The notes under the pieces are model-generated. The model was not told the DNA's origin and did no database searches. It saw only the letters and a list, made by a program, of their open reading frames with translations. Made by a program: the position numbers and the translations under genes. This document shows, piece after piece, positions 15,040 through 39,134 of a DNA stretch of 55,749 nucleotides; within the stretch, counting starts at the first letter, position 1, and each line of letters begins with the position of its first letter. Source of the DNA: SAR202 cluster bacterium (GTDB lineage Bacteria; Chloroflexota; Dehalococcoidia; Lucifugimonadales; GCA-2712585); the NCBI GenBank assembly GCA_016872285.1, contig VGZZ01000012.1, forward strand, positions 1 through 55,749. Reading direction: 5' to 3'.

Positions 15040-16611
15040 CTACCCCACAATCCCATTCTGTAGGGCGAAGATGACGGCGGAGGTGCGGGAGGTGATGTCT
15101 AGCTTGCCGTAGATGTTTTCCAGGTGTCGCTCTACGGTCTTGGGGCTGATGACCAGGGAGTCTGCAATCTGGCGGTTGCGCATGCCCTGAGCCAGGGCGC
15201 GGAGGACTTCGATTTCGCGGTCAGAGAGGCTACCCAAGCGCTGGTCTCGAAACACAGGCCTGGCAGGCGCGGGCGCGCCTTGGAGGTGGCCGGCGAGGCC
15301 TTCATAGCAGAGGGGGTCGAGCTGGGTGGCGACGGAGGCTTTCATCTGGCGGAGGGCGGCTTCGGGGTCTACGGGATTGCCGTGATTATGGGTGGAGATG
15401 GCGAAGGCGTCGGCGGTGGCGAGGATGCGCTGGTGGAGGGTGGTCTGCGCGGCGCGGAGCTGGCGATGGAAGCCTCGGCCGTCCACCCACTCGTGGTGAG
15501 CAGCGGCGTCGGCGCCGAGGTCTCGCAAGGGCGCGACGTTGGAGAGGATGCGCTCGGTGTAGTAGGCGTGGAGGCGGATACGCTCGCGCTCGTCGGTGGA
15601 GAACTTGTCCTGCTTTTCCATGGCGCTGCAAGGGACGGTGACCTTGCCCAGGTCGTGGACCAGGGCGGCGCGTTGCAGGCGGGTGATGTCGGTATCAGGC
15701 AGGCGAAGCTGTTTGGCGATACCGACGGCGGCGTCGGCTACGGCCTTGGAGTGGCCCCAGGTGAAGGGGGACTTCATGTCGATGAAGTCGGCCAGGACTT
15801 CACAGGTGTTATCAAGGTGGGCGTCGGTGACGGCGTCGTAGGGGGAGTCGGGGGCGAGGGCGAGGACGGCGGCCTGGGCGGATTCCATTTCCAAGGCTGA
15901 CCAGAAGTCCGGGCGCTGGCTGGCCTGGATAAAGGCGTCGACGACATCGGGGTCGAAGTCGCGGGTGCGGCGGTCGCGGGCGATGGTGGTGGCAGCGGAC
16001 GGGCCGCCGGTGCGGTGGGCGACCTCCATCACCTGGGCGAGGTGGAGGACGCGGGAGGCGACTGGGGTCTGATCGCCTTTGAGATGGTAGGCCATGCCCC
16101 TGCCGTTCCACTGCTCCCAGAGATAACGAACGGTATTTTCGATGTTCTGAGAAAAGCCCAGCCTTCGAGCTAGCATAGCTCCGGTCTCGCAGGCGCTGGC
16201 GGAGAGGTCTCGCATGAACTCCGAGCCGGTGACAAAGAAGGTGAGGAACTTGGCCGCTCGCTGGGGGAGGGACTCGTCGGAGGCGATGTGCCCCATAAGC
16301 CAGCGCGACATATCGATCATCTTGCCACGGTCTAGCAGGTGGAAGTTCTGGCGGGCGGTGACCTCGTCGCCACCGAACTTGGCGGCAAAACTTGCCGCGC
16401 AGGCGGTTCAACCGGCGTCTTTAAGGAGGCCGCCGTAGTAAACGGCGACGCGGTCGTCGTGGGGCAGGGCGAGGGCGTGGACGATCTGGGTGGCGATCCA
16501 GACAGTCTTGAGGCCGTGCTCCATGGGCTGGCCCATATTGAGGTCGGCGGCCAGGGAAAGGGAGCAGAGGAGCTCCGAATAGCTTCCTTTAGTCTGTTTT
16601 GTCTCGCTCAC
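15040..16611 (-). CDS. HD-GYP/LuxR-type regulator, predicted selenoprotein (in-frame TGA)
   Basis: Reading TGA at 16410-16408 as selenocysteine gives one 523-residue protein from GTG 16611 (ribosome site TAGGAG) to 15040, with no frame change. Residues 1-230 resemble an HD-GYP-like module (AADLNMGQPMEHG, YYGGLLKDAG-U68-TACAASF, WEQWNGRG). Residues about 285-430 form a second HD-GYP module with HSKAVADAA, HDLGK (H319/D320) and HHEWVDGRGF. The last 65 residues are a LuxR helix-turn-helix (LSDREIEVLRALAQG, SPKTVERHLENIY). Relatives, as I recall the family, have Cys at the U68 position (GC in a YYxxLLxxxGCTA context). The internal ATG at 16320 has no ribosome site. It probably couples a nucleotide or redox signal to transcription. 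The alternative is a nonsense mutation. Confidence 0.75.
16382..16398 (-). promoter_or_regulatory. Putative bacterial SECIS hairpin, HD-GYP/LuxR gene
   Basis: On the minus strand, GCGGCAA (16398-16392), loop GTT (16391-16389) and TTGCCGC (16388-16382) form a perfect 7-bp stem. The loop begins 17 nt after the TGA at 16410-16408 and its first base is G. Both spacing and loop fit the usual description of bacterial SECIS elements. Confidence 0.65.
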
Positions 16612-16832
16612 ACAGGGGTCTCCTAACCTGGAAGCGTTGTCGCCAATTATAGTCAAGGGCGATTTGGCTGCCAACGGCAGCCCGAAATGGGTAATTTACC
16701 CGATGCTTACAGCTTTGGATGGTCTCACAATTTGCCCAACACATTGGCGGTCTGGCTTACGGGAAGGGGGTGAGAGTTGGTGGTCTATGGGTTGAGCCTG
16801 CATAGTCACAATCATGAGACAAGGAGCCAGAG

Positions 16833-23012: not shown

Positions 23013-23555
23013 ATGGTGGTAACGGCGAGTCGGTTGATGGTGTTGGACCCGACGGTGCAGGCGATGCCGGAGAGCACGGTGATGGCGCCTCGACCCAAGA
23101 GCCTGGACGGGATGACGGTGGGGCTTTTGGCGAACGGCAAGCGCAACTCGGACGAGATCCTGCGGAACGTGTATTCGTTGCTGCAGGACATGTATAACTT
23201 CAAGGGCACGGTAGAGCTGAACAAGCGGGACGTGTCGAGGCCGGCGCCCAAGCATATCATGGACGAGCTTTTGCAGAAGTGCGACATCGTCATAACGGCG
23301 ATAGGTGATTGAGGGTCTTGCTCGTCGTGCAGTGTGCACGACGCCATGACGGTGGAGAAGGCTGGGAAGCCGGCGGCGGCGATATGCACCGAGCCCTTTG
23401 TGCCCACGGGACGGGCCATGGCTAAGGTGCGAGGGCTGTCGGAGTACCCCTTCGCGGTGATACCCCACCCGGTGGGGACGCTGGAGGGGGAGGCGCTGAT
23501 GGCGCGGGCGAGGCAGGCGCTGCCGCAGGTATTGCAGATACTATTAGGAAAATAA
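23013..23555 (+). CDS. UGSC-motif selenoprotein
   Basis: The TGA at 23310-23312 is followed in the same frame by GGG TCT TGC, giving the diagnostic U-G-S-C motif (Sec100, Cys103) in the context VITAIGD-UGSCSSCSVHDA. Read through, the protein is 180 residues and ends at 23555. The UGSC family consists of small (seleno)proteins with a thioredoxin-independent U-x-x-C site, distantly related to glycine-reductase-type proteins; the precise reaction is not established. Residues before the motif (MTVGLLANGKRNSDEIL) and after it (EPFVPTGRAMAKVRGLSEYPFAVIPHPVG) are typical. A perfect hairpin follows the TGA. GAAAGGGGG precedes the ATG. Confidence 0.92.
23323..23343 (+). promoter_or_regulatory. SECIS hairpin of the UGSC gene
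   Basis: CGTCGTGC (23323-23330), loop AGTGT (23331-23335) and GCACGACG (23336-23343) form a perfect 8-bp stem starting 11 nt after the TGA. The loop lies 19-23 nt downstream and has G in its second position, as expected for a bacterial selenocysteine insertion element. Confidence 0.82.
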
Positions 23556-38621: not shown

Positions 38622-39134
38622 CTAGGCGCTTTTGCCTTGGGCTTGCTGCTCCAATCGGCGGCGCTCACGGTTGGTGATGGAGGTAATGACCTCGTCCACG
38701 TGCATACGGCCTACGGGGCCGGAGGCGTAGAGGGTGCCGAAGAGCGTGCCGCCTCGCAGGACAAGGAACTCCATGGGCTGGGGGTAGTGGCCGTGGTGGT
38801 CGTCGGCCCACCAGGGGTCGAAATCGACAAGCTGGTCAGGCCTGACGCCGTAAGCGATGGGGAAGGTGAGGCCGTTGTCGCGGGCCATGGCCTCGGTGGA
38901 GGCCTTGTCATCCACTGTAGCAGCGACGACCTGCGCACCCAGGGCCTCCAGGTCTTTAAGCTTGGACTGGTAGGCGACTAACTGCCGCCGGCAGTAGCTT
39001 CACCAGTTGCCTCGGTAGAAGAGAAGGACGAGGTAGCGGCCTGTCATGTCGTCGGGGAGGGTGACGGCGCGGCCGTCGGTGAGGCTGAGGGAGAGGCGGG
39101 GCAGCTTGTCGCCCTGGGCGAGTTTTTGGGGCAT
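38622..39134 (-). CDS. Peroxiredoxin/thioredoxin-like selenoprotein (WUxxC)
   Basis: From ATG 39134 (ribosome site AGAGGTGG) the frame runs through a TGA at 39002-39000 to a stop at 38622, giving 170 residues. The TGA falls in VLLFYRGNW-U45-SYC48-RRQL, where relatives of the AhpC/TSA-like family (FYRGxWCPxCRxQL) have the reactive Cys. The site is thus U-x-x-C. These proteins reduce peroxides or act as thiol oxidoreductases in the cytoplasm or envelope. The rest of the domain (LEALGAQVVAATVDDKAS, FPIAYGV, PMEFLVLRGGTLF) is intact. Selenocysteine at this position is known in such proteins and raises reactivity. A hairpin follows the TGA. Confidence 0.9.
38978..38997 (-). promoter_or_regulatory. 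Putative SECIS hairpin of the peroxiredoxin-like gene
   Basis: On the minus strand CTACTGCC (38997-38990) pairs with GGCAGT, a bulged T and AG (38986-38978) around a GGC loop. The perfect inner stem is 6 bp. A bulged U resembles that of the fdhF element, but the loop lies only 11-13 nt after the TGA, closer than usual. Confidence 0.5.

Follow-up and report, generated by a model that had tools for sequence, protein, structure and literature searches.

The window analyzed here is a stretch of 55,749 nucleotides from a SAR202 cluster bacterium, taken as a whole. On its minus strand, at positions 15040 to 16611, lies a gene for a regulator of 523 residues that combines an HD-like, an HD-GYP, and a LuxR (GerE) domain. 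The reading frame begins at GTG 16611, with a Shine-Dalgarno-like AGGAG 8 nucleotides upstream (16620 to 16624, minus strand), and it ends at TAG 15040. The sole stop between these two points is a TGA at 16410 to 16408 (minus strand), which is in frame and forms codon 68, with 67 codons upstream and 455 downstream. It falls on the invariant cysteine column of the family, and we propose that it encodes selenocysteine (Sec68). The gene shows neither scattered stops nor frame damage, and the original prediction of a single in-frame TGA in an otherwise continuous regulator held.

Pfam assigned HD_5, which has HD-GYP character, to residues 271 to 433 (15313 to 15801, minus strand) and a GerE/LuxR helix-turn-helix to residues 461 to 516 (15064 to 15231, minus strand; PF00196, 3.6e-20), the latter matching in structure the DNA-binding domains of LiaR (Z 13.7). 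The HD-GYP domain keeps its metal-ligand set (H287, H319-D320, K323, H348, and H372-H373), and its HHExxDGxGYP region reads HHEWVDGRGFHRQL, with GFH in place of GYP; most relatives have GYH. Profile comparison of residues 10 to 258 with residues 259 to 447 gave a match at 98.4% probability (E 4e-15), showing that the front part of the protein is a second, degenerate HD domain (residues ~12 to 250; 15862 to 16578, minus strand). LLKDAGU in the front domain aligns with LVHDLGK in the C-terminal HD-GYP domain, and Sec68 therefore occupies the position of the HDxGK lysine. The original assignment as an HD-GYP/LuxR regulator held with one refinement, namely that the Sec residue lies outside the HD-GYP catalytic domain, in the degenerate HD domain ahead of it.

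The predicted structure of the protein is confident (pLDDT 88.7, pTM 0.87). By far the best match to a solved structure was V-cGAP3, a 3'3'-cGAMP phosphodiesterase from Vibrio cholerae (PDB 5z7c), over residues 11 to 444 (E 2.5e-67, Z 27.5, 31% identity). The match is co-extensive and covers both HD domains. V-cGAP3 has the family's cysteine at the Sec68 column (LLKDAGCSSNAA), in place of Sec. It differs further in that its GYP is intact where the window protein has GFH and in that no LuxR match was found in its 463-residue chain. Sequence and predicted fold show a V-cGAP3-like cyclic-dinucleotide phosphodiesterase with two HD domains and a LuxR-type DNA-binding domain in addition; that it hydrolyzes such a substrate is inferred.

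The homologs came from ~1,200 genomes within the phylum, with plasmids as a further source. Among 84 distinct homolog contexts, column 68 was cysteine in 73 and TGA in 2, with methionine in 6 and serine, isoleucine, and valine in 1 each; the Met, Ser, Ile, and Val sequences belong with the remoter matches, at ~24 to 30% identity. In a 28-sequence alignment with Sec written as Cys, column 68 is one of 8 invariant columns. The second TGA, at exactly this column, occurs on contig 47 of G025, a genome from another family of the same order, in a gene whose product is 37 to 38% identical. No TGA member beyond these two was found in the ~1,200 genomes of the phylum, and a related-locus search of a set of genome contigs returned matches to the LuxR domain alone. 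The tree places the window protein as sister to a cysteine protein from genome G554 (48% identity, support 100/99) and the G025 protein on a different branch. The supported branches force two label changes, which could be two steps from Cys to Sec or one gain and one loss; we take the G025 TGA to be independent of that in the window. That a TGA should fall on an invariant cysteine column, and do so again in an independent relative, is far beyond chance. As with other HD-GYP/LuxR cysteine homologs of the phylum, the G554 protein has the three-domain architecture and the column of the window protein, but its codon is TGC rather than TGA and no equivalent hairpin is present. The G025 Sec protein has 445 residues and no DNA-binding domain, so Sec accompanies the HD/HD-GYP part and not the LuxR part.

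A separate observation concerns the HDxGK lysine column (residue 323 of the window protein, 15643 to 15645), which is L, I, M, or R in most of the cysteine homologs of the phylum. The lysine is kept in the window, G025, and G554 proteins, and in all three the HD-GYP metal-ligand set that includes it is intact. This retention hints at enzymatic activity in the Sec forms and their sister, an inference from sequence.

One alternative is that the TGA is a nonsense mutation or a MAG assembly error, in which case we would be looking at a pseudogene or at an ordinary cysteine codon. In its favor, TGC to TGA is one substitution, and single in-frame stops do occur in other homologs, each a TAG, at columns 490 (in the gene's own paralog), 344, and 138. 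Against it, both TGA codons fall on the one invariant cysteine column, in different families and each with the same hairpin, and if stops arose at random, the chance of striking that column would be about 1 in 523 per TGA case. The remainder of the window gene is intact, and the flanks are conserved on both sides. We regard this explanation as very unlikely. The single TAG stops, at columns unrelated to that of the TGA, likely represent stray nonsense, unlike the TGA cases.

The paralog, from the same genome as the window (L051, 1974 to 3539 of G000 contig 17), has cysteine at the Sec column and its single TAG in the helix-turn-helix; since no PylS is present in the genome, gene decay or an assembly error is the probable explanation. 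The TAG codons at columns 344 and 138 belong to L056 (G034 contig 2) and L134 (G923 contig 20), which have one each. Pyrrolysine was considered for these single TAG stops and rejected, as no PylS above the cut-off was found in G000, G034, G923, or G025.

A second alternative holds that the UGA terminates translation and that the functional product is a shorter protein, made from an internal ATG at 16320 (426 residues) or from another internal start. Internal start codons are indeed present in both TGA genes. A restart of this kind, however, would drop the best-conserved stretch of the front domain, the invariant column included. No Shine-Dalgarno-like motif is visible upstream of ATG 16320, as had been claimed at the outset, compared with the AGGAG at the true start. 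Residues 12 to 67, upstream of the TGA, are as well conserved as the domains downstream of it, showing 59% to the G554 protein versus 43 to 48% for the middle domains. Internal restart is thus very improbable.

Downstream of the TGA, at 16382 to 16398 (minus strand), is a bSECIS-like hairpin, GCGGCAA-GUU-UUGCCGC, with a 7-bp stem (-9.6 kcal/mol). There are 16 nucleotides between the UGA and the loop, which has G first and comprises nucleotides 17 to 19 after the UGA. The hairpin of the G025 gene likewise has a 7-bp stem, a spacing of 16 nucleotides, and a loop with G first (-9.3 kcal/mol). Both genes share GCGGCA-RGUYU-UGCCGC in identical register, and both hairpins satisfy the bacterial SECIS model printed in PMC13188914. 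The hairpin is nonetheless supporting rather than deciding evidence, and weak alone, because some recodings, sense-codon homologs, and other TGA triplets pass as well. When each of the two peptides was recoded synonymously, 10% (window) and 22% (G025) of the recodings gave an equally stable SECIS-like hairpin, 4 of 41 sense-codon homologs (one Cys, three Met) passed the hairpin test, and some SECIS-like hairpin follows 105 of the 1,388 TGA triplets in the window. The nearest cysteine homolog (L083) failed the test.

The genome to which the window belongs encodes tRNA-Sec (76 bits), SelB (365 bits), SelA (557 bits), and SelD (376 bits), and its SelD carries an in-frame TGA of its own, followed by a SECIS-like hairpin. 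The tRNA-Sec, SelA, and a TGA-bearing SelD are present in G025 as well. No SelB above the cut-off was found in the G025 assembly, which is 91% complete; a missing contig or a divergent SelB could possibly account for this. A third alternative is that UGA specifies some other residue, whether Trp or Gly by a general reassignment of the codon, or is read through unspecifically. Nothing was found in its favor, and it can be all but excluded: a homologous gene in the window's genome (L052, G000) uses TGA as its normal stop, cysteine is the residue found at the column elsewhere, and a complete Sec system is present.

Two other genes in the window have in-frame TGA codons. One, at 23013 to 23555 (plus strand), encodes a UGSC-family protein (NF041046, 145 bits against a cut-off of 125) and has its TGA at 23310 to 23312, with a strong SECIS-like hairpin after it (-13.3). 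The other, at 38622 to 39134 (minus strand), encodes a peroxiredoxin-like protein with its TGA at 39002 to 39000, in a UxxC motif (GNWUSYCRR), and with a SECIS-like hairpin (-8.9). Like the regulator, both belong to the same genome and combine an in-frame TGA with such a hairpin, but they are predicted selenoproteins of kinds already known and are not regulators.

On this evidence, UGA codon 68 is very likely read as selenocysteine and the gene encodes a selenoprotein. The case is shown computationally, without biochemical proof and without data on expression, on the protein, or on its selenium. The organism would insert Sec at the codon with its own SelB/tRNA-Sec system, aided by the hairpin directly downstream. 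The case has its limits, in that there are only two TGA members, the hairpin is not significant alone, and SelB is lacking from what was found in G025. The selenocysteine reading in the original prediction is supported, and every one of its checks that was run came out in favor: Cys and TGA exchange at this column between conserved flanks, and selA, selB, selC, and selD were all found in the window's genome. Its perfect 7-bp hairpin with a G-leading loop was confirmed, although as sole evidence it would be weak, and the two further window genes it had cited for UGA as Sec are both real.

The neighborhoods of these genes differ in content. The window gene is surrounded by genes for CoA-transferases, a DUF559 protein, secreted proteins, and a metallophosphoesterase; redox genes are not among these neighbors, and they give no hint of the targets of the regulator. 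The nearest cysteine homolog (L166, 3822 to 9207 of G554 contig 39) is flanked by a Pyr_redox_2 protein, a divergent 1-Cys peroxiredoxin, and a rhodanese, which together form a thiol/sulfur redox neighborhood. Within the short flanks examined, a peroxiredoxin gene beside a homolog was found at G554 only. In G025 (L167, 3912 to 7328 of contig 47), the Sec HD-GYP gene is preceded on its own strand by genes for a GGDEF diguanylate cyclase and for a T2SSE-type ATPase.

Sec68 is part of a UxxC motif, U68-T-A-C71 (16399 to 16410, minus strand), and the nearest cysteine relatives of the window protein have a CxxC there, CSAC in G554 and CTAC in G913 and G893. Since the cysteine at +3 is missing in G025 and in most of the cysteine homologs, the UxxC/CxxC pair is not general. 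In the mechanism that we propose, Sec68 and Cys71 would form a redox pair in the degenerate front HD domain, which would serve as a sensor, its Sec/Cys reacting with oxidants or with sulfur species. Oxidation of the pair to a selenenylsulfide, or of Sec alone, would change the front domain, and the changed domain may in turn alter HD-GYP phosphodiesterase activity, DNA binding, or both, giving a fast redox switch. We put this forward as the most likely action of Sec68, but only tentatively, as the balance still lies slightly against it; the "redox-sensitive switch of transcription" of the original prediction remains an inference. Because the G025 protein has neither a DNA-binding domain nor the +3 cysteine, what the two Sec proteins have in common is an HD-GYP enzyme with a proposed Sec in its front HD domain, and only in the window protein would a direct effect on transcription be expected.

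The main competing view accepts Sec insertion but not a redox sensor of transcription. Sec68 would instead be a structural or catalytic residue of the phosphodiesterase, contacting a metal or ligand in the front HD domain, or would confer resistance to over-oxidation. Several points favor such a role: the cysteine column is invariant even without a +3 cysteine, V-cGAP3 keeps the cysteine though its chain shows no LuxR match, the G025 Sec protein also lacks a helix-turn-helix and stands behind a GGDEF gene, and the Sec aligns with the HDxGK lysine. Against it, the window protein's closest relatives carry a CxxC, which fits redox sensing, as does the placement of the G554 copy among peroxiredoxin, rhodanese, and Pyr_redox_2 genes. 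This view could as easily be right as wrong. A bolder form of the redox switch would have the redox state of the UxxC pair in a repurposed HD domain directly couple the oxidative state to second-messenger breakdown and to transcription within a single polypeptide, a proposal that falls somewhat short of being probable. The same caution applies when this coupling is taken jointly with a new selenoprotein family, that of a Sec-containing, DNA-binding cyclic-dinucleotide phosphodiesterase.

Most of the selenoproteins known so far from bacteria are redox enzymes or thiol proteins. Among the 119 prokaryotic selenoprotein families catalogued in 2026 (PMC13188914), there is no regulator with an HD-GYP or HD domain and none of the LuxR or another helix-turn-helix type, the functionally nearest family being an FmdB-like putative regulatory protein. 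The catalogued families share with the window gene an in-frame UGA, a bSECIS-like hairpin, Cys homologs, the UxxC motif, and the Sec machinery. No HD-GYP, HD-domain, or LuxR selenoprotein was found in the deep-Sep paper, and no HD-GYP, LuxR, or DNA-binding selenoprotein in the literature searched, from whose coverage most subscription papers were absent. Within that catalogue and literature, the earlier claim that a Sec-containing, DNA-binding HD-GYP regulator would be new held. By computation, and pending biochemical proof, the gene likely represents a new selenoprotein family and the first selenium-containing regulator of its kind found on record.

Read with the standard genetic code, such a gene is truncated at the UGA, and regulators of this kind are therefore easily overlooked. 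The finding points to the invariant and unexplained cysteine of HD-GYP regulators, found family-wide and also in the solved V-cGAP3, as functionally important. If the reading is true, the presence of Sec in a second-messenger phosphodiesterase with a transcription-factor domain would extend the use of selenium to signaling and gene control.
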